Below are positions 1 through 44,473 of a DNA stretch of 64,000 bases, piece after piece. The notes beneath the pieces are model-generated. The model worked only from the letters and a program-made list of their open reading frames with translations, did not search any database and had not been told where the DNA came from. The stretch is from Tubulanus polymorphus (lineage: Eukaryota; Nemertea; Palaeonemertea; Tubulaniformes; Tubulanidae), in contig NC_134027.1 of the NCBI RefSeq assembly GCF_964204645.1, positions 26,896,485 to 26,960,484 on the forward strand, given 5' to 3'. The translations under genes and the position numbers were made by a program. The first letter of the stretch is position 1, and each line of letters opens with the position of its first letter.

Positions 1-1688
1 ATCTATGCTGTGGCAAGTGAGGTGAGTCATTTCCAGAAACAGTTTCACAAGGAATAATTTGACCTGCGCTAAAATTTGGCACCGGCCAAAAGGCACACAT
101 TGATATGAACAATTGGCTTGGACCAGGCCCGAACGCGCGGTATAACAGACAATACCCGAATTTTGCTTCAAATCCTGTGTCATTATGGCTTCGGTGTAGA
201 TTTCGGGGTCACTGAATCTTAATTGCGGAACTGGATGCAGAAAATCGATATTTTGAGTCAAATATAGCCAAATTTTACTTGGATATCATTACGACAATGT
301 TTTCGAACTTTCACAATTCAATACTACCACAACATACCACTGCAGTATATACAACTTCAAAGAATTTCTGAAGAAAAATTTATAGACCTTTAAAGTGCAT
401 CATTAAAGTGACCTTTCGTCTGTAAAAAAAGAAGATAAACCAAGACGAGAAAGAGGAAAAGAAGAGAGAGGAAGAGAGAAAGAGAGAACGATCAGATGAG
501 ACTGATCAATCAGGCTTATATCTCTCCCCTACCCCCAGTGTATACTGACAAGTGCAATGCAGATATCAGGCGATGTACAACTCTTGTGTTATATTTTCTG
601 AACTTCTCATTGGCGAATGCAATTATCTTCTAGTTTTCAGAAGCGAACGTAAGCACATCGTCAAGTGGTTGAATCAGGAACGGGAAAATACGAGCTCTTC
701 TCGCAAACTGCGCCTCATCCTCCGAACATTACAGATTAATCTTCATAAAAAAAACTATTGAGCAACACACGTGTATCCGCATGGGAGCATACGAGTTAAC
801 AAATTACACCCGAAAGCCTCTTAGACAGAAAAACCATCGTCTATTTCAGTTACCGGAGCTTTATCTACGCCTCGCTTTTTTTTTCAATGGAATCGAGAAT
901 AAAAACGTAATCAATATTCAAAACATGATACTTTGATACCGGCTAAGTCTCGGCGGATAGCCCTGAATTCTAGCAGTATTAATAATGCCACCAATCTATC
1001 ATCACAAAAGCACCGGGACGTTAATTATTCCGTAAAGCCCTTCTACTCAACAGCAACACTGCGCGAGCCACAAAAAATATGATTAGTAATGGCGCCAGGT
1101 CAAAGAAATATAATCATCTAGTTTTACCAGTTCCCCGAGGGCCCAGTGATTAATTCTGTTTCCAATTATTGCAATTATGAGTTTCCTGAATATCATTTTT
1201 CCTTTGAAAGAAAAAACTTGCAAAAAACCATTTTTCTAACGAGTGTAGAATGATATAAACTTCAATAGAAGTTCTTTCTTTCTCTTTCTCTCTCTCTTCT
1301 TATTCTCTGTATTTAGTGCGTTCTCTTTTATTATGGCATTTCCAAATAATTATGCACTACAAACACAGTCACCACCAAGCAGCAGCCACAGCTAGCGATA
1401 TCAGGTATACATGTATAAACATACCCCTAAAGCGGAAATTATCCTTTTTTCTGTTCAGCCTAAAAAATGAAATAGTATTATTATGAATACGGGCCCAGTT
1501 GGAATGCAATGATACAAGACCTGTGTGTGTTCGATTCCTTGTTGTTGGATACTTAACGAAATATATTTTTCTGAGTTGAAAATCTTATTTGTTCTATATT
1601 TCCTAGTTTTGCCTAAAAGGCAATATTTGGTGGAACAACATAATGGCTTCGAAAGAAAACCTACAAAGCTATTAGGTCAACCAAACTC

Positions 1689-1758
1689 AGTGGTGTAGTG
1701 GTAAGCACACTATTTCTATGGTTTCTATGCAAGAGGTCCTAGGTTTGAATCCTAGGAG
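1689..1758 (+). repeat. tRNA-like pol III promoter, probable tRNA-derived SINE head
   Basis: A box-A-like stretch (TGGTGTAGTGGTAAGC) is followed about 40 bases later by a box-B-like stretch (GGTTTGAATCC). The latter sits in a perfect 5-bp T-arm (CCTAG/CTAGG), and a 4-bp D-arm (GTGT/ACAC) also forms. The acceptor ends do not pair, so this is not a working tRNA gene. The usual explanation is the head of a tRNA-derived SINE or a decayed tRNA copy. Confidence 0.4.
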
Positions 1759-4126
1759 CGTTAGAGGGTTGTGGTTAAAGTTAATACTTTTAACTACCGT
1801 TAAATTCTATTCTTTATATTTTGTGGTCATTGTTACCGGTATATTAATATTTCTGTTCTAATTCTGCATAAAAGATTAAACTTTTAGCGGAAAAGTTGCT
1901 CTGATTGGAATGAATGACTATCCTTGAATATTTCTTCTCTTATTTATTAAGAGAAGAAATAAAGATTTTTAAGTTGAGTAAGCAACGTTTCCCTCGGGGC
2001 AAATCAGGAGTCAGAGTCACCACAATGAGTCGTTAACAATTACTGTCATAAAGAGACGCGTTTCTCCTGCACAGCTATCAAACATTTAAACCTAGAAATA
2101 TCAAACATCAGAGAGAGACAAGGGAAAGAGTTGAGTGAACGCCTGGCGACCGGTTCAATCTCACTGGAGACACTCGTCTCATACACAACAATGCCTACCG
2201 TGGATTATCCCGACGCGAGATGAAACTTTTCTTTTTGTCGCTCCGTACGGCGGTGTCGTGTTTCATATAATTTTCGTAATGGAAGCTTAATTGGATGGAT
2301 TCGGTTACGGCATCAGATCTTTAGATGTTTTTTTCAAACAGAAGAAACAGTGTTATGATTGTCAAGTGACAGGAGACGTGTCACACCAGTAATTCAATAC
2401 GCGCACTACACGCAGTCAAACTTTATATCTCAAATATATTATGATGAGATGCTCCCTCCTAACAGCGCACACCGTAAAAAACCCCTAGTTGTGACACCGG
2501 TGTTTTGACATTTCATACAGAAGAGCAAAAACTTGACAGAAAAATGCAGGTGCAGAACCCCGACATAACATTTGGCTGTGATATTTCTCCTAATGATTAA
2601 ACAGATTTACTGAGTAAACCGAACATCTGTGTACAAATATAAACGGGATACAACAACAGTAACAGCAGCAGCAGCAGCAGCAACACAGTTTACTGGAGTA
2701 GGATAAAAAATATGAACTCATTAGTGCTGAAGTATATTGAAAATAGACAAATTGTTACCTGATTCCTAATATCAATCCACATACAACAAGACATCCGTGG
2801 TAAATATACACGACTGGATTCATAAAAGTTTAAAGTCCATCAGATAATGAATGATAAGAACTAACCAATCATTGATAGGTTCGGTTTATGATGCTCAAAC
2901 ATCGAGATATTTCACAAATAGAAATTATTTACATATCAATTTACTTCATTAGGTGCCTTCAATAGGTACCTACTGATCAAAACCTTACATTTACCGACCA
3001 TCAACTTGTTACATTGAACAACCTCTCCTACAGTGAACCTCGCCTAACTCGTACACGCTGTGACTGGCAAAATTGGTCCGAGGAATGCTAAGTTTGGGTT
3101 TAGGACAATGCGTCAGAAAGTCAGAAAATGATATTGTCAAAAGTCCGATTTGGCCAGGTTTACTGTAACTTTTTTACGGCTGTTATACTTTCGTTGTAAA
3201 TGATAAAGATATTTGATTACCTGAGCTAAGAGACTGTGTATCCGTGCCACTATAACGCGTCTACGCATATAACGAGCCCACATACAATCAGAGAGAGAGA
3301 GATAGAGAGAGGGAGAGAGAGAGGGAGACACATAATTTCATATAAAAAGTTTACTAAGTAAATATTTACAAAGCCAGTCATAACCAAAACAAACTAAGCT
3401 GTCCCACAAATCCGGTGAAGCTATGATTATATTCATAATAGAAGTAAGATGTTATCAGCATTGACAAGTCAATTCTTTACTGACATCCGAGTCGATCTAG
3501 TTACTATGTACAATACATAGAAAACCCCATCAAATGAATAAATATAGCACCACAGATAACTGTGTGCACTCAATCAAAGAATCAAGTATCCTCGACTTCA
3601 CTGGAGATGACCATTCCTTGCTCTTCCACACCACTGACACATCACACACATATTCACGGTCACATTTATTAGAAGAAAAAAGATGTACACTGTGTAAACA
3701 TAATCTGTTGGGAATAATGAATACCCCTCGGCGATGAAACCCCCATCAACCGTGCTTCAATTATATAGTTGCACTAATATGTTACTTGTCAGCTATATTT
3801 CATTATTGTTGCTTACATTGTGGGGTAAAATTACATCATTTGAAAGCTACTCAACATGCTGGTCTCTCAACAAGTGTCACGTGTCTTATTACAGACACGA
3901 ACGATAATTTGGGCTAAATCTAATCAGTTGATTGCTGCTTGCTGATGTTAATAACATTTTATTCACCAGTCGTTCGTATAATTTTACAGATTCCCCTCGA
4001 CATTTACCGCTCCCCGCAGTCGAGCAATCATTACCCAATCTGTCAACTCTTTAAAATCAAGAGTCCATTCCCAAACTTACAGGCATATCCCTTGTTGTAA
4101 GAATATTCTACAGTAAACTCCCCCTA

Positions 4127-4376
4127 CAGGGCGGCCACTTTCCCACTCATCTACAGATTCCCAGAGCTTTCCAAATGCACTCAGTAAATAAGAGAAATTT
4201 CTTTGTTTAAAATGTAACAATCTATTCATTTCTTCACGGATTATTGACATAAAACGTTTGGTCAATAGTATATCCGAATTCCCTGAGTTTTCCAGGTTTT
4301 TTTGTAAAAGATTTGTCAAGAGTTTTCCCTGGTCTTTCCCAGTTTTTCCAGGTTTTCCAGGTCAATGGCCACCCTG
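4127..4376. mobile_element. CAGGG-ended non-autonomous DNA element (MITE)
   Basis: The left end reads CAGGGCGGCCAC and the right end GGCCACCCTG, inverted relative to each other. The 5-bp direct repeat CCCTA flanks both sides (4122-4126 and 4377-4381), as expected of a target-site duplication. The interior is rich in short TTTCCAG-type motifs and has no coding potential. The element at 31,151 has the same type of ends and also a 5-bp duplication. The ends suggest a hAT-like element, but the short duplication is not the usual 8 bp. Confidence 0.6.
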
Positions 4377-7300
4377 CCCTAGTGTTGGGACTGTTGAGAA
4401 TATTTCACCGAGTTGAGAATCAGGGAACTCACCAGATTGGGACTGTAGTTTGCGAGTTGGATCAGGGAATTGGAAAGTTTCGTGAATGAATGTCTATCAG
4501 CAGAGAGTTAGGTGGGAGATTTCTGTATGTTGTGTGGAGACGACTGCGGAATAAAATGTGCAGGTCACAGATGAAATGTCACGGAGAGTCATCAATCAGA
4601 TTAATTACAGTGAACCACGCAATGAGAAACAACGACAGAATATTAACACATTCAGCGAATGAAACAGAACAACAGAAACAGAATCAACACCACGAGTAAA
4701 CGGGTTTTTCTAGATCTCAATAGCTGTTCTTTAATAGTATTTCAAAATATCTAAAGTTTATCAATGAAATTACAATATCTGAATAGTTCAGTAATGTGCA
4801 ACTGACTGAACTATACTAAAGGCGGGTGTAGGTCGACTTGCGACCGATTGTGATGCGATTGTTTGCAACTGGTCGCAAACTGGCACTTTACATCGCGTGT
4901 GACATAGCTTTGCAACTAGCGTGGCTGGCGGTCGCAAAGGTGCGAAGGTTGACTGGTGATTGTCAGTAACAGTGAATTGCGTCACATTGAGTCGCTGGCT
5001 GTCCTGATCTACGCCTCCTGGCTTTACATAGCTTTCAATGCTGCACATTTTGAACGCATTCAGATAAGGATTTATTCATGACAAACTGTGATATAACAAT
5101 CTAGAACTTACCAACAGTACATTAACGTCACTAGGACGTAATCATAATCCAACAAGATGAAATTATCATCGGCAAGTGAGAGATTAGAGTAATCCATCTG
5201 AGATACAGAAAACTGAAAACGGTTCGACACTCAAGAGTTCAACATGATTAAAGCAAAAACAACATCAAAAGCATCAAACAGATTCTTAAACTTGATGCAA
5301 CATTTTTAAATCCTTCGATACTTTTTTACTGATTTTTTTTAATCAAACTACAACTTTATACGATACATTCATTTCTACTTAGAATCCAGTTGGAACAGAT
5401 GCAAACAATACGATATCGTCAAGTGCCATTATTTCAAAAACGGAACTCGTTGCCTGCTATTTACTGATAGTACCGGATGTATGACACATTGACTTGAGCC
5501 TTCCACCCGAAGAGCGAGATTAAAGATGACCAACTCGAGACAGTAGATCAAGAAGTCAATGATAATAGACGGTACTTAGCAATCCATATTGTAACATAAG
5601 TGCCCAGACATAAGAACTTGGATTTATTATTACGCACAGAATACTAGGGGTCCTCCTCGGTGCTAAATGTAATTACTTTTTTAACATACGCAGGTTAAAT
5701 TCGACCACCCTGGAATACAGGTCGATAAGAAATTAGTCAAATATGACTCATAATATCATTAGAAATGTTAGCATTAGAATATAACATCTTGAAATGAGAT
5801 CCAGCGATCGTGTTGATCAAAAGATATAATGTTTTATCCGTACAATCATCAATCCTAACGGATTGCTTTCTTCGTGTTAGTGCTACTGTTGAAAATAATA
5901 CTATTACAGCAGTTACAATAAAGATAGAATTCCAGATTCCGCGATACGCGAAGAATGAAGAAGAAAATTGTCTCCATGCCAATAGGTATAGTATTGATTG
6001 GGACAGGGATCTATTGTGTGTGTATCGGGGTTTATAAAATACAGAGATCAATAAACGTTCGTCCGTCGTAGGATCGCAGTTAAAGACAACTCGACTCGGA
6101 GCTAGGCGGTGGGTGAAGGGAAGGATTAGTCAATTCTATGTGAGATACAGTGAAATCTATCCTGACAACGCGATGACAATGATGACTCATACCACAAATT
6201 AATCACACAAAAATATGATAAGCTAAAGATGAGAGAAAAACTATCGGTTTGACAACAAGTAGAGCTTCACTATCAGTGCTTACTCCTGTCCATAACGCTG
6301 AAACCTTATTTATACTTGCCGCAAGATTGTATACCCGAACTGAAACCAAAATCTCCAATTATGTAATGAAAAAACGTATATAAGATCTTGTTGGTTTCTT
6401 GTTGGTTTCTCGTGGTTGGGTCAAAATGTCAACTGCTCGTTTAGTTTTTTGATGTATTTCTATAATAGTGATGTGTCACGGTAAGGGGTTGTGTGTGAGT
6501 CGATGTGCACTATCAATACCGGCGTTTCAAAATAAAGATTGACACATCAAATATCTTTCATAAGTCTTATATCTATATTTGATAAATTTTGATAATCATT
6601 TTTGAGAGGATTTTCAACTATCAATTATTGAGTGATACATTTTGTACTTCTGATATCCAGATTCCGCACACCGTATTTCATTGCGGCTAAACTATGTGGT
6701 GAGGGATCGAGAATGAGAGAATATGAATTAGTAACAGAAACAGCTACAACGTCTCTCTCCCTCTTTCTCTCTCTCTCTCTGATTCTTTCTAACAAAAGTT
6801 ATTAGAAAACGGAAATAAAATGACGAGCAAAATCAACAGATATTCCCGCAACAATTTCCCTCGGTAACTACTGCATGTCACACAGTAACGAGTACGTCCT
6901 ACGTGATGTGAGTGAGTACCCTCTATCAGAATTCTAGCAGTGTACGAATATCTAGTATTCTTATCTTATGACTAATTTGTAAAGCAGGAGCTGAATTAGT
7001 GAAAGTATCGATGACACTGTGCATGATTTATCAGGATCTCTGCTGTGACAAAGACATCGCAGCGCGGCTGTAGGCTATTCAGTCAGCATTACAACAACGA
7101 AAAATACCGTCCACTCAACTGATACCCGAGCCGCGGTCCTTTAGACCCATGAATATTTCATGCCTCGTGAGATTGTCAAACTTCTGCCGATAGGGAACTT
7201 AAATAAACCGGCGCGCCGCAGACGCTGCGGTCCTCTAGAGCAGACGGACTATATTCATCAATACACGGTGTCCCGTTGTGTCGACGATAATTAGCGCAAC

Positions 7301-10300
7301 AGTTTCACTTCTATAAACTGTAATTAACGTGCATCTGTTGGCGACTGAGATCGGTAGAATACCGGTGATTACAGACAAACACTGGCGTCAAACCTTCACC
7401 GAACCGAGCGCACGCTCTATTAGAGGTGTAAAGAGAAGAGTGGTTTAACAATGACTGGTCATCCGGTCAATTCAGACGCCAGTTCATTATCCGCAATCAG
7501 AGTCATTTACATGTTGTTAATCGACTTTGAAATCAGACTCCAAAATGAACTTTGATTTTATGAGCCGTCGTCGGCCGAGAGCAGAGTCGTGACTGGGCCC
7601 CAGAGAAGAGAGAGATAAACACCAGTCAGATCACTAACCTCACGACTAGTCTAAAGATTTAAGAGCACCTTTGAAGTCACAACTATGCAACTTGACCCAG
7701 CATCACATCTCTGGGTCATTCCATACATATGTATGGAGATCATTGTCATAATCTAAATGAATTCTAAATATTTCAATAGTTATATGTATACGACTGTAAT
7801 GAGAATATGAATTATTTATAATGTATCACTTTGTATCTTAACACCTCATCCCTTAATTACTCTCTCTGTTCTGGATTGTATATGTGTAACCATGAACTCT
7901 ATTAGAGTCTATGGTACAACTCACCATTTTGTGACAACATCGCTATTCAGCTGAACATGACTATTGGGATATAGTCAACCGACTGTATTAGCTGCTATCA
8001 GCTCGAGGAAACATTTCGGACTCTATTTTATTCTCAGCGTGGGATTTTTCATATTATTATGAATCAGTTCAAACTGGTTTCATTTCATTTTGTTGGACAC
8101 CTTTTGTTAAAATATCATACGTAGTAAACCGGGCCTCGCGTATTACTCATATCAAACCTAATCATGTCAATGTGGAACAAGAAACTTGACTGTGATTTTG
8201 AGGAAAACACGATTGGATTGGAATAATTCAAGCATCCTCCACATATTGTGTATATGAGGGGTGAAAAATGTCTCGTACATGATCTTGAACTATTTATGCT
8301 ATTGTTAGTTTCGATTGTGTGAGCATTGCCCCCCGGAAGAGCGACGCAGCCCTTGAGAATACGACTCGATCTCTCATCTCTACCTGAACGAGTCGTAAAT
8401 TCATTATAGAATTCGATCAATTTCTACAACGTTTTCATCAGCAAAATTCACGGCGAATAATTGAAACAAAGGAATCCATCGCGAAGCAAGGATTTCATTA
8501 GTTTAAATCAATAAACAGCCAGTAGTTTATCAATAAACCATTGACCGATCTAATCATTATACTGATTGTAGCAAATTTAAATTTCTGGTCGAATGATTTC
8601 TGTAAATACGGCTGCAGGCTTTAATTCCCTTCAGGCTTTATACAACGTCTGCTTATTAATAAATTGCATGTTATTTTGCTGTCCAGAAACCATATACAAC
8701 AACTAATGTATCTATTTAATGAAAGCATTTAATCTGATATATTCTATATAAAAGCTATTTGACACAGCTGATTAAGGTTCCTGGTATTCAATGAATTCCT
8801 GGTGCCATTAATGTGTGTTTTATGCGTTTTTAGGTTGGCGTGTCATCATTTTCTTTATCTAGTACAATCTCTACCACTGAGTAAACTCCGCCGCCGCACT
8901 ATCAGTCAAACAGCGATGGTTTTTTCACACAGCTATTTGATGTAACACTTGATGGCGCCATTCGTACATACGTCGCTGGTTTTAATACGGCTGATCACAC
9001 GAGACCGAGGGGGGGGGTATTATCACCTTCACTTACACATTCAGTTGTTTCAACAACCATTGATAAGATTCCCACTCAGTCTGACAAGTTACAGTGTTTA
9101 GAAAAGTAGAAACTTCTAGACACATTCAAGTTTTAGGTTATTCACTACAAGTTTGATCAGTCAAATAATCAGATATCACAATGGGGGTTACGTTAATGAG
9201 ATGGTTTAGAACTTCTGAATTTGACTCTAGAGAAAAAAAGATGTCACTGCAGCTCCCAATTTCACTCACCCGTTTCTCGACAAATTCATGTCAAAAAAAT
9301 GAAAAATCATCGACATCATTTAGTAGAACGACAAATTATAGCGAAATTTAGGAAAATCTTTTTTTACCTGTTCTGTATTTCGATGAAATATTCCGGAGTA
9401 TTCTACTAGATATTTCCGATCATAAACGTGAGCGTGTGTGTATTGGGAAGAGTAGAGAGAACTCTGAAGGGAGAATCATTGATCATAAAGATTACCTTAC
9501 ATCTGCCCAAACAACTGAGATACAGGCGACATAATGTCGGCAATGGGTGGGTCTTACATTGTACGACATATTCAATGACAAAACACAATTTAGAAGATAA
9601 TTACAAGATAATTATAGACTAAAATTTATCAACCAAACGTTCTAAACAATAGATTAATTTCCATAAAAATTCGTACAATGCAAACAAAGAATTTGAATTG
9701 AGTTTTTTTTTTTTTCTAGAAAAAAAGCGACAAAAAAGGTTCTCTCTCGATAGAATAGCGTTTGGTTTATTGGACAAAAAATATGCGATGTCTATGACCA
9801 GAATCGATTCAACAACTTAATCAACATTTATTCAGCATTTTGTGATATACGATCAAAATTATCACCGAATTGAGAAATATTTTTGTATTTTTCTCTATTT
9901 TTCTTTGTATTTGAAATAAAGACTTATCATTATTGATAACAATTTCTAATTTGGTTCCAATAAACTGGAAGCATAGTGATATCAATAGTAGTAATATCGA
10001 TTTTAGTAAATATCGATATGAGATGAAATCATACTGGTTTAGAACTTCTGAAAACTTCTGGCTGCTCATTGGAGTATAGAATGTAGTGGAATGCATGACG
10101 CACAATAAATCATCAACACGAATATAACCAAATTAACTGCACTAACACAACGACTGCGTTTGATAAAATGGTTGAAATAACAAATCTAATCTAATTTCTT
10201 ACCCATTAACTGCTGATTTTCAGCGAATATTGATTTCGTTTATAGATAGCTGCGGTAAAGTAGACTGGCTGTCTCTGTCAAACCCTAAATGTGGAGACAG

Positions 10301-12869: not shown

Positions 12870-14764
12870 ATGAATGTTCCTTTACCCGCATTTGTGACGA
12901 AGGTCAGAAAGGAAATAGGAGTTCAGGTAAGTAATGCTGCTGCATGATATTAAGTTAATATATTTTAAGTCAATAATAGCCTCCAGGTCTAGGTCATGAA
13001 TAGTCAGTAACCTGGTCTGTGGTTTAGTTTCACGATCGGATATTTTCACAAACCACATGTTATAAGCCCATCTGATTATAAAAAGTTTACCACCAACGAT
13101 TAGGTAACTAACTATGCCCATCTGATTATTAAAAGCTTACCACCAACGATTAGGTAACTAACTAGGTCATGAAGTGGTCTGAATACAACCAGATGAGGTA
13201 CAGGTTCGTTCCCTTACAAAAACTCGATGGGTTTGAGCCGTGAGGGGATACAGACTAATCAGTAATTACTTTGTGACCTAGTCTACTTAATCTATATTGA
13301 AAAAAACTTCAGTTTGTTATCATTTTGTATATTTCAGCCGAAAGGTTCATCCAGTAAAAACTTTATACGAGATTTTTTGCTTCGTCATATCGAGTCATCG
13401 AAAACCAGCGGAGCAAAGTCTGAAATAGATGACGAACAATTCAGATTCAGAACGTTTTACATGGGCAACTATCCGGCGACTAATAAAATACCACCTCTAC
13501 CGCGCAAAAAGAAATCGCTCTCATCTAAGGAGAAAAAGAAACTGAAGATTTATGAAATACCTGCAGATTGTCGAAGGTAAGATCGGAGTCATGAAATGAA
13601 GGCCGTATGATTAATGAAATATTGAGGTATATTTGTATATTTTCATTGTAGATATGAATTATATGAACCGATGAATGGACTGTGGAACGATTATATGTGC
13701 GATCTCGTCAATTTTGATAAGTATGATTCAGAACCCATTTTCAAAGTTGTCCGTTCATTTTCACTTTTGAAATGAAGTTATTTATCACTGTTGAGTAATA
13801 TCTAAACTTAAAACTGTGCAAGCAGCACCCAGTGGCCTGTTGCATAGTCATGGCTTAGATTTGAGACCAGTCTAAGACCAACTTAGTTGTTTAGCTTATA
13901 TAGGCCTAACAAGAATGGTTTAAGACTTTTGAACCTAAGTCACGACTGTGCAACTGTCCCCAGGATACTTGAACTGAATTTTTCTGAAACTAATAAAATC
14001 AGTTATTGTTCATTTCTAGATTCAATCCTCAGAATAGTCAAGTGCTCGAGACATTTCTGAAAGCCGACTATCACGGATGTCATATGAAAGTTACTAAATC
14101 TAAATGTTCATCACTGATCGGAACTGAGGGCATTCTGGTTCAAGAAACTAAAAATACATTTAAACTCATTACGAAAGATGACAAACTCAAAGGTAAGAAT
14201 ATGGACCCAGTCGGGTGTGTTTGATTCCTCCTTATTTGCAACCAGTTAACTCAGTTAACAATTAATATAATAATGTGCGAGTTAAACACTGTTTTGGAAA
14301 GATTCTTTTTCTCTGATCCTCAACTCAGTATCGGGGGTCAACAACATTCGAGGTCCAACCTTAACCGAGTGAGGCACAGTTTACATACATTGGAGTGAAT
14401 CAAACCTAACAGAAAACTGTGGAGCTAGATCCCGAGCCTGGCAGCGCATCTAACTGAAGCTAGATCCCGAGCCTGGCAGCGCATCTAACTGCAGCTAGAT
14501 CCCGAGCCTGGCAGCGCATCTAACTGCAGCTAGATCCCGAGCCTGGCAGCGCATCTAACTGCAGCTAGATCCCGAGCCTGGCAGCGCATCTAACTGTAGA
14601 TTTCTCTTTCAGTTATACCGAAGAAGAATAGTGTTTTCACGTACGAGATAAAAGGATATGAATTCAATATAAATGGAAATCAGTTTCTGTGTCGAACTGC
14701 TGATAGATCAACTCATAAATTTGGCAAATTTATCAAATTTCCTCTAAATTTCAGTCCTTTGTAA
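12870..14764 (+). CDS. POP4: Ribonuclease P/MRP protein subunit p29
   Basis: Five exons: 12870-12926, 13338-13576, 13652-13720, 14020-14192 and 14613-14764 (690 nt, 229 aa; human p29 is 220 aa). The product binds RNase P/MRP RNA in the nucleus and takes part in tRNA 5'-end and rRNA processing. The family signature is the C-terminal Sm-like barrel: KADYHGCHMKVTKSKCSS, then GTEGILVQETKNTFKLITK, then VIPKKNSVFTYEI. The second exon encodes the basic, low-complexity N-terminal part. The first exon (MNVPLPAFVTKVRKEIGVQ) is the least certain, being short and poorly conserved, but it has an in-phase GTAAGT donor. An AATAAA lies at about 14773. The last intron carries a 5 x 35 bp minisatellite. The segment from the exon-4 donor onward, including the last exon, is duplicated 1,518 bp downstream. 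Confidence 0.9.
12988..13284. repeat. inverted-repeat element in POP4 intron 1
   Basis: The segment begins with CTAGGTCATGAA and ends with TTTGTGACCTAG, consistent with short terminal inverted repeats. It contains a 56-bp direct duplication (about 13055-13165, motif ACCAACGATTAGGTAACTAA). It also contains a stretch (TTTCACGATCGGATATTTTC) shared with about 11,215-11,240. No coding potential. Boundaries are approximate. Confidence 0.4.
13832..13961. mobile_element. MITE, family with GTTGCA...TGCAAC ends (copy 1)
   Basis: Ends are TGGCCTGTTGCATAGTCATG and GACTGTGCAACTGTCCC, roughly inverted, with a CTTAAGACC-rich interior. Related copies lie at 24,292-24,420 and 33,961-34,102. All three are in introns of different genes, which supports a mobile origin. 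Confidence 0.6.
14423..14597. repeat. 35-bp minisatellite, five copies
   Basis: Unit of 35 bp beginning AGCTAGATCCCGAGCCTGGC, repeated five times almost perfectly, ending 15 bases before the POP4 exon-5 splice acceptor. An identical array is at 15,941-16,115 because the whole segment is duplicated. Confidence 0.95.
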
Positions 14765-15129
14765 ATGACTACAATAAATCATGGTTTTTTACAAGAAATT
14801 TGTCATGTTCCTTTTTTTCCTCAAGATGTGATCATTCAGACTTCACACCAGTGTCTAAAGGGGTTCCTTCGAAAAAGTGATCATCCAGGGGCTGAGGGGG
14901 CGTTCCGGGTTGCGGATATATAGTAATGGTTTCATCAATCGTCTTTGGTCTTTTTACCTGGCTTCATACCCACAACAATATCTACAACAAGTCGAAGTTA
15001 AAGTCTAAACTATAAAGCATTTTATTGGTGCTTATGGTGAAACTAACAATATTCACATTCATCAGTACAGAACCACGTGGTGGGATATCTGGCGCAGTTG
15101 TCAATCGTACTCAGCTGATTGATACTTAC

Positions 15130-15682: not shown

Positions 15683-15709
15683 CTAAATATACGAACAATT
15701 ACGTTAAAA

Positions 15710-18475
15710 GGTAAGAATATGGACCCAGTCGGGTGTGTTTGATTCCTCCTTATTTGCAACCAGTTAACTCAGTTAACAATTAATATAATAATGTGCGAGT
15801 TAAACACTGTTTTGGAAAGATTCTTTTTCTCTGATCCTCAACTCAGTATCGGGGGTCAACAACATTCGAGGTCCAACCTTAACCGAGTGAGGCACAGTTT
15901 ACATACATTGGAGTGAATCAAACCTAACAGAAAACTGTGGAGCTAGATCCCGAGCCTGGCAGCGCATCTAACTGAAGCTAGATCCCGAGCCTGGCAGCGC
16001 ATCTAACTGCAGCTAGATCCCGAGCCTGGCAGCGCATCTAACTGCAGCTAGATCCCGAGCCTGGCAGCGCATCTAACTGCAGCTAGATCCCGAGCCTGGC
16101 AGCGCATCTAACTGTAGATTTCTCTTTCAGTTATACCGAAGAAGAATAGTGTTTTCACGTACGAGATAAAAGGATATGAATTCAATATAAATGGAAATCA
16201 GTTTCTGTGTCGAACTGCTGATAGATCAACTCATAAATTTGGCAAATTTATCAAATTTCCTCTAAATTTCAGTCCTTTGTAAATGACTACAATAAATCAT
16301 GGTTTTTTACAAGAAATTTGTCATGTTCCTTTTTTTCCTCAAGATGTGATCATTCAGACTTCACACCAGTGTCTAAAGGGGTTCCTTCGAAAAAGTGATC
16401 ATCCAGGGGCTGAGGGGGCGTTCCGGGTTGCGGATATATAGTAATGGTTTCATCAATCGTCTTTGGTCTTTTTACCTGGCTTCATACCCACAACAATATC
16501 TACAACAAGTCGAAGTTAAAGTCTAAACTATAAAGCATTTTATTGGTGCTTATGGTGAAACTAACAATATTCACATTCATCAGTACAGAACCACGTTCCA
16601 AATAATGTGAACTTTCATCATCTCAAGATTATTGGAAACCACCGCATAATAATGTTAGAATTTAGAATATTTCTTTACAGTTTCTACAGTAAATGTGCAT
16701 AGGAGAAATAATGGTCCTCCGAATTCAAATTCCCGCTAAATAATCATCTATTTCAGTAGAAATGCTCGTTGTTTCAAATGATACATAAAAGTTGCATGTT
16801 TGTATTAACAACTCAATCAAATACTGCGAAAAGCACCGAAAAGTGCTTCGTTATTTATAAGAATTCAGAGGTAGAGTTTTAAAGATTTACAGCAATATTT
16901 CATACATCTCTCATCGCTCGTCCAGTTAAAGGCCTGTAGCCATTCAGTGATACAGTCTACATTCATCCAGAAAATAATAATATTTTACAAGACAGTTTGT
17001 CTTTATAAATACTTTAATTCGAACTATTAATTAACAGCTACTCTCTGAAGGATAGCCAAGGGGTAGCCCTAGAGGTATACAAATGTACAAACTAACAGCA
17101 TTTATCTTTAATTATGAGTTATATATCATACAAAATGTAAACTGCTTATCCATGAATTAGTCCTAAATTGGCTTTTTCTTCCTGTAAGGATTAAGTTTTT
17201 CAACATCTTTTAGAACTGATAAAATTGAGTAAATAGGACGATGAAAGGTCCTTAAATATGCATTACAATTACATGATATACAACGCAAGATCAGATATTT
17301 TAGGTTTTCTATACCGACTGTACAAGCTTCTTCATTATAGCCCTATGAAAAATTTGGCATAGAAATGAACAAAAATTTTCCGCAAAAAATGTCCCTTTTT
17401 ATCGTAACGAGTGGCCCTGATTATTTCATCAGCTCAGAAATATCAGTTTCACTTATTGCATAAAACTGTGAAAGACATGGATGGCATTTCCATGAATATG
17501 TATTCCAAAAATAAATACAAAAAACATTTGATCATTTCCTCTAAAAACAGTGATTTTTATAGATTTGGGAACACGTAATTGAGAGCTCTCATCGCCATTT
17601 CGTAGCCCAGGAAACATGCCTGAAAATACAGAGAAAATGAAGATCAGTAACGACGACTCAACTGTGGAAAGTGAGGGTTCCACTTGCGGCAAGCAAGGAT
17701 CCACCAGTCGGCGACAATAAGCATTAGGGCGATGCCGCATTTTGACCACAATTTTCTTTGAGTTATTTTTACATAGAAATAAATTCTGTAGTGGGAGGCT
17801 GAATCTAGATAAAAGTTAATTGGTTGATCAAGTAGCGCACGCCATCTGGTGGGATATCTGGCGCAGTTGTCAATCGTACTCAGCTGATTGATACTTACAG
17901 CATTAGCCGGGAACGCTCTCAACATTACTGGAGTCAAACCCTTAAATAAAGCAGTTGGTCCTTCCGTTTTAACGATATCTACGAATACACTACGAACTCC
18001 ACGTTTATACATTCCTTCAGGAGCTGAAAATGAGAAATAGAGAAATTATTGCCAAATAATAATGAATTAAACAGTTTTTTATTCAGTTCGGTTTTAGGTA
18101 TTTTACCAGTTTGTAATCTTGACTTGAGAGTATCGGGAGCAATAGCACCGACCCAATTACACACACCAGCTCCACCTCCTGCTAACAGTATCTGTAGTGG
18201 ACCCAGATCTTTACGACTAAAATAGCAACGAAATCATTAATCCAGCATTTTACTATGAACCCAAATTCATTCTTTAAACTAAGACAGTTATTAAGAATAC
18301 AATGCTATGAAATATCACCACGAAACACATGAAGTGGGCGCTGACATTGAAAGGACTGAGTTTATACACGATACTTACGTTCCACCTTCAGGAGTTAACT
18401 GATCTTGGAAGAATTCATAGGACGCAAAGTATATACCAGTAGCTGGAACATCTAAATATACGAACAATTACGTTA
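15710..18475. repeat. Tandem segmental duplication, copy 2 (longer)
   Basis: Second copy of the POP4/SLC25A20 junction segment, with the 1,250-bp block 16597-17846 retained. The POP4 side (second minisatellite and second terminal exon) is redundant. The SLC25A20 side belongs to the intact gene. Confidence 0.9.
16131..16282 (+). pseudogene. Orphan duplicated last exon of POP4
   Basis: Identical to POP4 exon 5 (14613-14764), with its acceptor, stop codon and AATAAA, but no upstream POP4 exon lies between the two copies. It could serve as an alternative terminal exon for a long POP4 transcript and would encode the same end. Confidence 0.8.
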
Positions 18476-32052: not shown

Positions 32053-35025
32053 TCACAGCGACTGTTCATTAACTTGTATCATGTATAAATGTTTAGCGGT
32101 GAGAATATATATTCTATCATTGGTCGCTTGCATTCCTAGAATCGTATCGGTACATTCTAACGTAACTAACTGTTGCTTAGCGATGGCCGATACGGATTTC
32201 CCCGTTTTACGATTTCTCAAAGGAGTCAAAGTCGGCGACGATTGTCTATAAACGTAAACATGACGAACGCAGTCACATAACACGGCGAACGATAAATCAG
32301 GCGAACACGTCGTGAACTTATTCTGCGTTTTCGAAGCTTTCACGTATCCGAGGGCGTTAAACGTCCCTACGTGTATCCACGGCGATTCAACAATGTCGAC
32401 GTTATCTTGCGGTTGCCATACGATACCGTCGACGTCGTGGCGTAGACATAACGCGCATGTTTTCTGATTGGATAATCTCGTGTTGAACAACCACTGATGA
32501 CTTGCCAGATCAGCCTAGAATATAAGTCAAAGACATTATCGCATTTGACATGATTCAATGAATCTATGGATCCCTGAATCCACAAGAGGATTATCCAGTG
32601 AATCTCTAGATTCCTGAATGTACAAGAGGATGATTCAGTGAATCTATGGATGAATATAGAAGACCCAAAATATTAAATATAAGGTTAAATCTGACTGAAA
32701 TAATAATTACCTGATGAGTTTTAACATGAGTTTCACCATCAATTCTCACTAATGCAGACGATTCATCGGGAAAATTATCACAATCCTCTAATTCTTGTGC
32801 GTTATACGGCTTTTTATCATCATCTTCATTCTCATCATCCTACATAGAAATAAATCACTCGTAATGAACCCTTAAACTACCGGTACCAGGAGGTGAGGGG
32901 AGGTGAGAGGAGGTGAGGGGGGTACCTACCTCTTCCATTCGGTCACTAGTTTCAGTATTTTCTACCAGTTGTCCACGTTCGTCCCCTTCAACTACTGTCG
33001 TCCACAATGTTTCACTTTTCTTTCCCAAAATTAATTCTAACCTGAATTTTAAAGCAAAACAGTTTGTATTCAACACGCAGTAAATTATCGATACACGCCG
33101 TGTAATATTCATGGTTCATTTAAACATAGGTCTGAAAATTATTCTGAGGTCGGCTATAGAACTAAGTTGGACTCAACCTGAGAGGGTTAAATCTAAGGCT
33201 TGACTGAGCAACTGAATCAATAGAATTAAGCCCAAGGTTTTAGCCCGAGATCTCTTCAGAAACAACTCGAATTACAGGTTATTGCGCTAGAAAAAAACAA
33301 ACCTATTGTTTTGAATCGTCCACGTACTAGCTTCCACATCGACACTGTTAAACAGCTTTCCGTTCAACAACGGCTCCATTTCATCATCATCCACTGATAA
33401 CTCTATATAATCAGGCACTAGTTTGAATTTCACCTCGGTTTTTTGGTAAGCTCGAGGTAGATTAAAGTAAACCGTTAAATCCTCCGCAGTTTGATGCCAT
33501 TTATAAACGGAACGTTCTTTTTTATCTAAAAACATAAATTCAGACAGCATTTTATTGAATTTTTAACGATATTCAGCTCAAAATTTCAAACTCAACGATG
33601 AAATTCATACCAGATTTTTCGATGTTTCTTTCTTCGATGGTAATCGGTTTCAGTGAATCGTACGTCATTTTGAACGGTTTCTCAGACGCTACGTAAATCG
33701 CTTTTCCGTTTGTTTGAAGACTGATATAATCGACAGGCGCCGCACCGGTCAGTCTCCGAGTTCGATACAATTCCCAATGATCTTTATCAGCTGTAAATGA
33801 ATTCAAAATGAACTTCAGTAATTCATACGATGGAACTGGATCCGATTCCTCAGGTTTGAGTTAAGATTTGAATAAGAGTTTAACTCATTGAAATTGAACA
33901 TTAACTCGAACTCACTGTGGTCATCCATCCATTAAAGGACGTTCTTAATTCTAAAACTGAGGGGCCAGTTGCATAGTCATGGCTTGGGTTTAAGACCGAT
34001 CTAAGATTAACTCAGTTCTATAGTCAATTAAACAACTTAAGACCAGTCTTAAGATTTAAGATCATTTTTGGACTTAAGTCATGACTGTGTAACTGTGGGT
34101 CCTGATATCCGTGAAGCTGAACTGACCTGAATTCACTACAGATAACCATTCGACAACTGTTTGGAATTTAGAATCGGAATCATTTTTATCAACTTTTTCC
34201 ACGTGTAACAATATGAAATCAACGCAATGATTTCCTCCATTTTCGAACATGATCGATTCCTTCAGTATAAATGACGCTTCGTCCTCAAGCGGACGACAGC
34301 GATAACATACCTAAAAATATTACACATAATAATCATTACCTTACCAAGTCTTAAATGAAGTCAATTATTTAAATAATGTGAATTTTACCTTCCAAGTCAA
34401 TCCATCAGTTCTATTACCGGTCCATACCAGATAGAGGTTACCGACACCGTCAGATAAACTCAACCAATCACGACTCATGAAACAAACGCACGAATGAAGT
34501 CGATTCGTAGACTGTCTCTGATTGGACGATACCGGAAATTCAAATACGATCTCCGCATTACTGATACTGTGACCCTGTAATGAGAAGATTATGCAAATTA
34601 TCATGAATGAATTGATAATAAAGAAGACTTAAGACGCGTAGACTTACATTTTCAACATGAATCTGCATCAGTTTCAAATCAGAAATATAGAACACACAAT
34701 TTGGATTATACGGATCCAGGAAAAGATGATTATGAACCGCAAATGCTTTAACATGTTGATAAGAGAATTGATTCTCTTGTAGCTTCAATTCATCAGGACC
34801 TGAAAATTTGTTCAATAAAGAAAATCGATTTATGTTTGACTTGAATATAATTTGTCGATCGTTTTTCGATATTTTTTAGAACAAGCTTTGAAAAAACTTA
34901 CAAGAGGAAAGTGAGACTTTATAAGATGGGATCGGATCTAAAGATAACTTGTATCCCTCAAAATTGGGATTGACAAGATCTCTATTCAGCTTAAAACCTT
35001 TTTCCACAGCATCAGTCATTTTCAT
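32053..35025 (-). CDS. NUDCD1: NudC domain-containing protein 1 (CML66)
   Basis: Nine exons: 34902-35025, 34648-34799, 34389-34574, 34127-34310, 33611-33790, 33303-33525, 32930-33041, 32711-32839, 32053-32514 (1,752 nt, 583 aa, the same length as human). N-terminal beta-propeller-like half (NFEGYKLSLDPIP...), central CS/p23 domain (YKWHQTAEDLTVYFNLP, STWTIQNN; residues ~275-350), then a conserved C-terminal propeller half (LCLRHDVDGIVWQP, TFNALGYVKASK, AKQQLVTLE, QATNDRIYIL). The CS domain is typical of HSP90-type co-chaperone partners; human NUDCD1 associates with COPI and dynein-related complexes. The start is at MKMTDAVEKG, directly after an in-frame TAG. Only 25 bp upstream of the ATG begins a palindromic repeat block. 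Confidence 0.95.
33961..34102. mobile_element. MITE, family with GTTGCA...TGCAAC ends (copy 3)
   Basis: GGGGCCAGTTGCATAGTCAT at the left and CATGACTGTGTAACTGTGGG at the right, with AACTTAAGACCAGTCTTAAG in the centre. In the NUDCD1 intron before the exon at 33,611-33,790. Confidence 0.7.
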
Positions 35026-35050
35026 CTAGGGCAATCTTAAGACCTGCTGC

Positions 35051-37868
35051 ATATGGCGTCACAAGCCCCGAGGCTTGTCACGCCATATTGGGGCCTGACA
35101 CGCCATGTGGTAAACGTAAAATGAAAATCAAATCCTATGCATGAGATGAAACGTCGACTAAGTCTCGCGGGTTTTTCTTCCGAAGTTGAAATATTCGGTT
35201 GGATATTAATTTGTCTTAGATGATTTACAACGTATTATATATACATAATAAGAACTACATATTACATCGCATTTACACTAAAATGAGTTTAACAGAATAG
35301 AAATTGATCGTTGTTTGTTAATCTAATGCAGTGTACACACATTTTGAAACACAATTTAAACAATCATATATTTCGCCAGCATATGAAAAATACAAAAACA
35401 TTACATATATATCTACTAAATGAGTTTTACACAATAAAGATTTTAATTAACTATCTTACATTTCAATGAATCATTCATCTATTTCACATGATTTGTTGAT
35501 CAATTAGTCTTAGAAGAACATGGATAATGTTAGAAAAACATATATGGTGAGCCAGGCTCCAATCTAGTGTGATCTGCAGTCATATTGCTCCTAAAATCGC
35601 TAAGCCTTCTACATGGCGTGTCAGGCCCCAAATGTTCTGCAGCCAATATGGCGTGTCAAGCCCCAAATTGTCTGCAGAATAGCTTCAATAATTGAAACAT
35701 GGTTTGTCGAACGGTTTTCTATGGAAGCAATTAAATTATATCTTTAGTTTCAATTAGTTATATATTGTTCATGATTTGATAATCACAAAACAAATACTGC
35801 TAGAAAAACCGCGATTTGTCTTCTATATGGCGTGTCAAGCCCCGAATGTTCTGCGGCCAATATGGCGTGTCAGGCCCCAAATGGTCTGCAGAATAGCTTC
35901 AATTGAAACATGGCGTGAGAGGACCCGATCAGTTTTCCTATAATTGTCACTAATTATCATAAATATTCAAAGATTTATCATTCTACATGGTTTGTCAATC
36001 ATTTAGACTTAGAAAGAAAGCAAATATTGTTTCAAAAATAGCTCCTCAAATCACGCTGTCTTCTACATGGCGTGTCAGGCCCCAAACGGTCTGCAGCCAA
36101 TATGGCGTGTCAGGCCCCAAACGGTCTGCAGAATAGCTTCAATTGAGATATGGCGTGAGAGGACCCGAACGATTTTCCGTACAAACAAATGAATAATTGT
36201 CACTAATTATCATAAATATTCAAAGATTTATCATTCTACATGGTTTGTCAATCATTTAGACTTAGAAAAAAGGCAAATATTGTTTCAAAAAGCTCCTAAA
36301 ATCACGCTGTCTTCTACATGGCGTGTCAAGCCCCAAACGGTCTGCAGAATAACTTCAATTGAGACATGGCGTGAGTGAGAGGACCCGATCGATTTTCCGT
36401 ACAAACAAATGAATAATTGTCATTAATTATCATAAATATTCAAAGATTTATCATTCTCCGTGGATTGTCAGTCATTTAGACTCAGAAAAAAGGCAAATAT
36501 TGTTTCAAAAATAGCTCCTCAAATCACGCTGTCTTTCACATGGCGTGTCAGGCCCCAAATGTTCTGCAGCCAATATGGCGTGTCAGGCCCCAAACGGTCT
36601 GCAGAATAGCTTCAATTGAGACATGGCGTGAGAAGACCCGAACGATTTTCCGTACAAACAAATGAATAATTGTCATTGATTATCATAAATATTCAAAGAT
36701 TTATCATTCTACGTGGATTGTCAATCATTTAGACTCAGAACAAAAGGCAAATATTGTTTCAAAAAGCTCCTAAAATCACGCTGTCTTCTACATGGCGTGT
36801 CAAGCCCCAAACGGTCTGCAGTCAATATGGCGTGTCAGGCCCCAAACGGTCTGCAGAATAGCTTCAATTGAGACATGGCGTGAGAAGACCCGAACGATTT
36901 TTCCGTACAAACAAATGAATAATTGTCACTAATTGTCTTAAATGTTCAAAGATTAATCCTTCTATATGATTTGTCAATTATTTAGTCTTAGAAAAAAAAG
37001 CAAATACTGTTACAAAAAGCTCCTAAAACCACGCTGTCTTCTACATGGCGTGTCAGGCCCCAATGGCGTGAGAGTACGCGATCAGTTTTCTATGGAAGCA
37101 ATTAATTGTCACTAATCATATCTTTAGTTTCAATTAGTTATATATTGTTCATAATCATAAAGTCTAAAAAAAAACAAATACTGCTAGAAAAATCGCGATT
37201 TGTCTTCTATATGGCGTGTCAGGCCCCAAACGGTCTACAGAATATAGCTTCAATTTACATGGCGTGAGAGGACCCGATCAGTTTTCCGTAGAAATAAATG
37301 AAAAATTGTGACTGATTATCTTAAATTAGTACAATAATCATTAAGTCTTAGAAATAGGTTTATAAATCGTTGTTTCTATTTTGTTCATATGTAAAAATAT
37401 ACAAAATCGCTTATGTAAATGTAGCTGATGATCTCCTGATCGTCTCGCACCATAACGGAAACCTGTAAAAAACATATTCGAAGAATTTTACATAAAAATC
37501 TTTCGATATATATGCATCTGAATATAGTTATGAAGTAAAAACGGGATATAATTTTCTTTCAAAGTGGTTGCACTGAACGGAATACTACAATATAACGTAT
37601 AAGTACATATTATATTTAGACAATATTTAGTAAGTATATATTTAGACAATAAGTTAAGAAAAAATAGAAATTCATTACACATTGACATACCGGTACTTGA
37701 AATTATCTCATTCAGGTTTTACACGTCGTATCGGACTTAAAAACGTGGTCCGTTCGACGCGAACATATATCTTCGTTCCGCGTGAATTATATATAGTCTG
37801 CATTTTACTCGGGGCTTGTGACGCCATGTCAGATATGGCGTGACAAGCCCCGGGGCTTGTGACGCCAT
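35051..37868. repeat. Palindrome-bracketed satellite block (GGCGTGWCARGCCCC)
   Basis: The left boundary is a 17-bp-arm palindrome (ATATGGCGTCACAAGCC, 4-base loop, GGCTTGTCACGCCATAT; one mismatch). The right boundary is a 34-bp zero-loop palindrome at 37835-37868 (ATGGCGTGACAAGCCCC and its near-complement), with a further inverted copy at 37811-37827. Between them about eight units start near 35606, 35820, 36060, 36311, 36535, 36785, 37038 and 37203, spaced 165-253 bp. Each has CTTCTACATGGCGTGTCAGG, often a second copy about 32 bp later, a CTGCAG linker, GGCGTGAGAGGACCCG, and an AT-rich filler. About 19 core motifs in all. No coding potential. Confidence 0.9.
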
Positions 37869-38367
37869 GTTCTGCTGATTCTTAAGATTGACTTCACTCG
37901 TCATTTTAGCCACGTATCTACCGTCAGGTGCTTCCACACGGTGGCAGATTGTAGAACTATCATTGTCAAACCACCGCTTCGCTTCAAAAACCTGAGTAGT
38001 TTTCAAAGGCAGTGGTCAGGAGCACATTGACTTATCAGTCTTATTTTATTGGGTGGAAAGTTTCGAAACGTTTTTACTGTAACGTGCTGCCCCCAGTGAA
38101 AGTGGTAGATCCTGAAACGATCATTGTCATTAATTGTCACCTCAAGCAATTGAGGATATCCTTCTATAATAAGACAACACGCACACAATTTATCATTTAT
38201 AATAAATTTATTCTTCTACATTGAAATAATCTAGAAAAACAATATATTTACATTTGTCAGTTTGGAAGAAGAATATTTCTATCTCCAAGTTTTATCAAAA
38301 TTTCAATGTTTCAAACAAAACTACAACAATCGTATTACAGAAAAAGTTCACAGTCTCTAAATAGTGA
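37869..38367. other. Gap with no supported gene; NDUFA12 3' end
   Basis: Contains the NDUFA12 3' UTR, with a minus-strand AATAAA at 38207-38212. Two open minus-strand frames (37737-38006 and 38003-38188) show no convincing family match, and the first runs into the palindromic repeat. Confidence 0.5.
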
Positions 38368-43321: not shown

Positions 43322-44473
43322 TTATTTTTTTCTTTGTGTCAGGTTTTTTCCCACCTGTGAAATAGCAAACACCCTGCTTAGTTCATTTCGAAATTTCTGA
43401 AAGCTGATAAAATAGACAATAAAGTTAATTGCATTGTTTGATGTTTCAAGTGTCGTTGCTGTCAAGCTTAATAGTTGACGCATGGGTTGACGGGGCCATC
43501 TCAAAATTGATCGATTGTTAATGAGTATTGAAGTGACCACATTATTGGGTGTTGAAAGTATTATATACAAACACGTTATCGCCACCAGATTTTTGATGCA
43601 AGTTTTGTCTTGTTTTGAAAGAGTATTCTGTGAATTCACAGAAGAGGTTTTAGTAGGTCTCGACACTAGTTTTATTGCTATCATAACAATACATGTGATG
43701 TTTATGAAGTACGGAAGGATGTAAAGCGTAACTGTTTTGGACATCGTAATAGACATCGCAAAATTGGCATTTTCCATAGTAATTACGGGAAATAATATGC
43801 AGTTCTGCCATCGATCAATGCCATATATGTTGAACATGGCACCCTCTACACCTATGACAATGATCCATTGAAATAGAATCACAGACCGACGCCGAGGTTT
43901 GGTAAGAATTGTTGCAGCTCTCAGCGGCATCCATATAGCAAACGTCCTTTCTAGACTAAAAATACACAATGTCCAAGAAGAGAGTTTTAATGAAATATTT
44001 ACCGTTACGAGTAAAAACTTGCAAATCGATTCAGAAGACGCGTAAAAGATGTAGATATGAGAGGTGATTCCCGAAGCTAAGCTGATTTTCTCCAGCAATT
44101 TTAGTGACATTATATTCAAATATATGAGATCTGATGTAGCTAATGAGAGCAGATATTGAGCGCTAGGACCGTCTAGTTCATGGCGCAATAGAATGAGTAG
44201 AACTAACGTAGATATGTTGCCTATGCTACCGAAAATCCACACAAAATAAACGATGAAATTGAACGTGTACCAGACGCTTGATTGCCAACGCTCAGATGGC
44301 AATTCAAGTGATGTAAGATTCATAATTCCATCACAAAAAGAAAAATGTACAAATGGTGTAGGATTTCGATGTAAGTTAAACCGCACATGTGCCGGATATA
44401 TATTAATGATGTGTAGCCTTAATTGAAATACTAACTCCACGCAGACGTCGAGCAATATAAAAAATGACGTCAT
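43322..44473 (-). CDS. Rhodopsin-family (class A) peptide-type GPCR, intronless
   Basis: Single-exon frame of 383 codons. The more likely start is the internal methionine at 44321-44323 (MNLTSLELP, about 333 aa), which gives a short extracellular N-terminus with an N-glycosylation site. Seven hydrophobic segments are visible. Class A landmarks: GN in TM1 (GSIGNISTLVLLI), SLATSD in TM2, Cys in SICKF paired with Cys in WQNCIL (extracellular loop 2), SLERTFA in place of DRY, STP for the TM6 proline, and NFIVY in place of NPxxY. A basic tail follows. It resembles lophotrochozoan orphan and FMRFamide-like peptide receptors; the ligand cannot be assigned. Its 3' end lies 214 bp from the end of ASZ1. 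Confidence 0.8.
   Translation of the reverse strand: MTSFFILLDVCVELVFQLRLHIINIYPAHVRFNLHRNPTPFVHFSFCDGIMNLTSLELPSERWQSSVWYTFNFIVYFVWIFGSIGNISTLVLLILLRHELDGPSAQYLLSLATSDLIYLNIMSLKLLEKISLASGITSHIYIFYASSESICKFLLVTVNISLKLSSWTLCIFSLERTFAIWMPLRAATILTKPRRRSVILFQWIIVIGVEGAMFNIYGIDRWQNCILFPVITMENANFAMSITMSKTVTLYILPYFINITCIVMIAIKLVSRPTKTSSVNSQNTLSKQDKTCIKNLVAITCLYIILSTPNNVVTSILINNRSILRWPRQPMRQLLSLTATTLETSNNAINFIVYFISFQKFRNELSRVFAISQVGKNLTQRKK

Follow-up and report, generated by a model that had tools for sequence, protein, structure and literature searches.

The window analyzed here is a stretch of 64,000 nucleotides from the nemertean Tubulanus polymorphus (contig NC_134027.1), in which a satellite-like array lies beside a protein-coding gene. 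The minus-strand first exon frame of this gene, which we take to be NUDCD1 by resemblance, spans 34876–35025 and reads (MK)MTDAVEKGFKLNRDLVNPNFEGYKLSLDPIPSYKVSLSS, where the extra MK would begin in the transposon end described below. A downstream exon encodes a CS domain, which supports a NUDCD1-like identity, and the upstream neighbor is NDUFA12. Adjoining the exon is a whole non-autonomous transposon copy of 2877 bp (35023–37899, plus strand from family left to right end, subfamily A), enclosed by matching left (35015–35022) and right (37900–37907) copies of the target-site duplication GTCATTTT. Elsewhere in the window, a 383-aa receptor frame (43322–44473, minus strand; 7tm_1, E 2e-18) lies outside the element, about 5.4 kb from its right end, and an 890-bp direct repeat (14189–15078 and 15707–16596) is present as two identical copies 628 bp apart, with five 35-bp units each, at which we saw no clear end motif and no target duplication.

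Searching the window for the core GGCGTGWCARGCCCC at ≤3 mismatches gave 25 matches, 24 of them within 35055–37866, whereas shuffled sequences gave a mean of 0.76 and a maximum of 3. These 24 comprise 19 core-like copies, in agreement with the roughly 19 reported in an earlier note on this DNA, and five copies of a diverged variant, GGCGTGAGARGACCC (b-variant or b-core). The tandem array proper (35615–37275, plus strand) is built of core doublets 35 bp apart together with the b-variant, with a period of about 216–253 bp; Tandem Repeats Finder gave units of 220–253 bp, and spacings between cores cluster at 35 and 216–218 bp. As had been claimed, all array copies lie on the plus strand and inverted copies occur at the two borders only, and the same layout was found in the other full copies examined. 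At each border, two cores form a palindrome (left, 35053–35086; right, 37836–37869) with an extra inverted core on the minus strand beside it (35090–35104 and 37811–37825, respectively), as the core search and the layout in copies indicate. The palindromes had been called perfect or near-perfect; near-perfect is the right description, as 16 of 17 arm positions pair in the one at 37836, and both form hairpins far more stable than those of shuffled sequences, with z values of −3.8 (left) and −5.6 (right). They had also been taken as the borders of the unit, but this extends 30 bp beyond each of them, reaching 35023 on the left and 37899 on the right, which rules them out as the true element ends.

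Reading nine core loci revealed that sequence outside the palindromes is common to all. Genome searches with the outer 20-mers, namely the left terminus CATCTAGGGCAATCTTAAGA (35023–35042, plus strand) and the reverse complement of the right terminus, GAGTGAAGTCAATCTTAAGA (37880–37899, minus strand), returned 30 exact left and 29 exact right ends and a few near-exact ones of each, with 34 left and about 35 right ends in the genome judged good. At least 28 copies, the window element and 27 others fetched, could be paired with identical ends, 5′-CATCTAGGGC...TTCACTC-3′. Directly outside these ends, a perfect 8-bp target duplication was present in 21 of the 28 paired copies and absent in seven; the duplicated sequences are rich in A and T and share a weak pattern. 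The empty site that the earlier note had proposed to look for was found for one copy (L034), whose joined-flank 32-mer occurs once, at C10:5697484, with one mismatch, whereas no control matched. Thus, the genome holds what characterizes a DNA transposon, short identical target duplications and dispersed copies with common ends, and the suggestion of a structured mobile unit is borne out by a palindrome–array–palindrome order that recurs genome-wide. We conclude with high confidence that the window element belongs to a young, dispersed, and recently active family of non-autonomous DNA transposons. Members of this family have their ends and subterminal palindromes in common and usually also carry the core as a tandem array in between. 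The two ends are not terminal inverted repeats in the strict sense: the right terminus matches the left at positions 10–20, whereas only three of the outer nine positions agree, so that inverted similarity begins at position 10 rather than at the outermost bases. The CTTAAG beside the palindromes had raised the possibility of a TTAA target, as for piggyBac/Kolobok-like elements, but this was rejected, as CTTAAG is internal and the duplicated 8 bp lie outside the ends.

The middle of the element is a real tandem array with a period of about 216–253 bp, and the earlier note had named a plain satellite without terminal palindromes as the result that would overturn its view; the genome search instead returned copies with fixed ends and duplications. 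An ordinary satellite array that ends in palindromes by chance is practically untenable, since 336 of the 432 exact cores across the genome fall within the 28 fetched copies, which all agree in ends and layout and mostly have target duplications; the common ends with 8-bp duplications, together with the empty site, refute it. For rolling-circle elements, target duplication is not expected. The perfect 8-bp duplications in 21 of the 28 copies accordingly refute a Helentron or HINE-type element with central tandem repeats, against which the symmetric subterminal palindromes also speak, and we consider it extremely improbable despite the same plan, unique flanks around a satellite-like center at dispersed sites, in oyster Cg_HINE (PMC7492417).

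A third reading makes the array a regulatory device of the host, a multimerized protein-binding site kept for regulation of NUDCD1; it draws on the position of the array directly before the start codon and on the low variability of the core. We regard this reading as very unlikely because dozens of near-identical copies are found in unrelated sequence contexts and because the neighboring filler is not clearly less conserved than the core. Mean variability was 0.033 in the b-core and 0.056 in the AT-rich filler, although 18% of 15-bp filler windows were equally low; the comparison was made with the b-core, as the main core served as the criterion for picking units and offers no fair test. These values lend weak support to the earlier proposal that selection conserves the GC-rich core. 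Moreover, the arrays look inherited whole, so core conservation may simply reflect youth.

Given the transposon reading, the boundary with NUDCD1 can be described to the base. The pre-insertion minus strand reads ...GGCTAAAATGACTGATGC..., and the duplicated 8 bp, AAAATGAC on this strand, contain the ATG, which in the left copy is the one in use. Because the target duplication holds this ATG, the insertion appears to have cut through the 5′ leader right at the start codon. The satellite had been said to end 25 bp from the start codon, but the element reaches the start codon itself, with the ATG within the target duplication; the overlap with the 5′ leader that had been suggested therefore stands in a sharper form. 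On the minus strand, the first bases of the left terminus give TAG-ATG, which immediately precedes AAA-ATG-AC and is in the NUDCD1 frame, so the protein would gain at most two residues, its native start codon having been saved by the duplicated target. The element carries 69 ATGs on the NUDCD1 strand, none of which opens a frame past the native start except this one at the boundary. With the leader split, NUDCD1 would either use a promoter that lies within the element or near it, or be read through 2.9 kb that contain these 69 upstream ATGs.

Sequence identities within the family are high. Over the left 540 bp, unrearranged copies of subfamily A, which includes the window element, are 98.7–99.6% identical to their own consensus, and the right 600 bp of the window element aligns without a difference to the right ends of two other copies; subfamily B shows 98.2–99.7% identity within itself and about 75% to subfamily A. 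Array units had their best match in another copy in 81 cases and in their own copy in 7, with 15 ties, which suggests that the arrays travel with the element and are not homogenized in place. The number of cores per copy ranges from almost none (0) to 30. One 10.8-kb copy (L018+19) has no array yet shows a perfect target duplication, so the array is dispensable for insertion. The interiors of this copy and of a second array-less one (L023+24) contain no long frames; the exceptions, both in the latter, are a minisatellite and a receptor fragment. The interior of the array-less 10.8-kb element has a third copy, 87–94% identical, at C1:4567954–4574444, with no listed family ends nearby. Frames resembling reverse transcriptases (Penelope-like and RTE/jockey-like, by eye) were seen in L025 and L027+28, suggesting that the transposon family is itself a target of other elements.

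A candidate transposase was found in a 10.6-kb copy on C11 (L021+22) with the family ends and a perfect duplication, AAAACTTT. Its minus-strand frames encode a zinc-finger/SWIM segment of 487 aa, in which SWIM was recognized by eye, along with a 242-aa segment that is putatively catalytic and an OTU-like segment; the transposase is thus split over several frames, and it is the sole one found with exactly these family ends. Relatives occur on C12, several beside variant right ends (GAGTGTAGTCAATCTTAAGA) and cores, and more distant ones on C1, C4, C6, and C11. The five close relatives are all on C12 (7.25, 9.06, 10.06, 10.72, and 11.16 Mb), an 11.5-Mb contig that makes up about 4% of the genome. 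Pfam searches gave only weak zinc-finger matches for the two main segments, with the catalytic part recognized by no family, and neither a KDZ nor a THAP match among the frames of this copy. By eye, the catalytic segment has D.FH...EQ-like motifs resembling those of KDZ transposases, whereas hhalign against KDZ sequences of the same genome gave a non-significant P = 0.1 (20 shuffles, 0.15–1). A KDZ/Zisupton affinity of the putative zinc-finger/SWIM transposase is suspected.

The core palindromes lie at a nearly constant place, beginning 31 bp in from the left end in 27 of 28 copies and, on the right, at the same distance of 31 bp, with 30 bp left outside, in 25 of 28. This fixed distance makes them probable transposase-binding sites, and it is plausible, from the same position of the core near both ends, that the array is a multimerized form of a putative binding site. 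Under such a scheme, copies such as that on C11 would provide the putative transposase in trans; it would bind the paired cores near each end, bring the ends together, and insert the element at short, AT-rich target sites through a cut-and-paste mechanism. Extra binding sites would be offered by the array, whose length could change through unequal exchange or slippage.

One sister copy carries host gene sequence. L020 (C8:10803400–10813010), a 9.4-kb copy with the duplication CAGAAATT, holds 7.2 kb (element positions 908–8129) that was not in the other fetched copies. This cargo matches C6:7939632–7941621 and C6:6775521–6780775, both at 99% and with a 2-bp overlap where they meet, and no listed family ends were found at either donor locus. 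It comprises parts of two related receptor (GPCR) genes and two exon-like frames resembling a whole third gene, and a frame that is open across the left junction continues from the array into receptor sequence. With host sequence between the transposon ends and donor copies elsewhere on C6, L020 has, as judged from these alignments, captured host genes in the manner of Pack-TIR elements. A single capture and two captures are equally possible, because the order and orientation of the cargo also fit a donor chromosome with an inversion of 1.16 Mb. Receptor sequence is also found in L023+24, another copy with family ends. At C12:9056500–9066450 (L073), an open 351-aa receptor frame (65–1117, minus strand) and a fragment (3411–3722, minus strand) share a stretch with a sister transposase; this stretch ends short of the left end of the element, inside which the receptor frames may lie. 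The receptor repertoire of the genome is large (149 strong matches; 147 scored of 2674 loose candidates), so chance capture is possible, and given this repertoire we do not claim receptor cargo as a family hallmark. That the family is a putative new animal DNA transposon superfamily, in which the central array, built of the core that also sits at both ends, helps to take up several kilobases of host sequence and to disperse receptor genes, is a speculative idea that we consider unlikely.

Several known systems share parts of this architecture. In Galileo/Foldback elements (P superfamily) of Drosophila, internal tandem repeats hold several transposase-binding sites, and binding by the Galileo THAP domain has been measured (PMC3688188). 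The internal repeats of the window family may play a similar, putative role, but the family has one directional central array, only short palindromes are inverted, the duplications are 8 bp long, and the L021 frames gave no THAP match; the long inverted ends of tandem repeats typical of Galileo/Foldback are absent, with inverted cores confined to roughly the outermost 100 bp. Tetris/DAIBAM of Drosophila virilis, apparently non-autonomous, has internal tandem repeats of about 220 bp and has been linked to satellite formation (PMC4079207), although its repeats are in the inverted ends, whereas those of the window family form one central one-way block. The dispersed Cg_HINE elements of the Pacific oyster also carry satellite-like central repeats (PMC7492417), but are classed as Helentrons, whereas the window family makes 8-bp target duplications. 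Duplications of 8 bp are shared with Zisupton, and Kyakuja has CA..TG termini and no inverted repeats (PMC12730594). As for gene capture, animal Pack-TIR elements, including Ssk-FB4, hold copies of host gene sequence between DNA transposon ends (PMC8277862), and Turmoil-1 of C. elegans is an earlier DNA transposon with host gene sequence (PMC2572040); L020 differs in belonging to another family and in its 7.2-kb cargo, which matches two loci and contains both exons of a receptor gene.

These results explain a puzzling satellite as a mobile element and indicate that satellite-like arrays can scatter one copy at a time. NUDCD1 offers a natural experiment in which the leader of a gene has been cut at the start codon, and L020 adds a young animal example of what appears to be a whole receptor gene carried by a DNA transposon.
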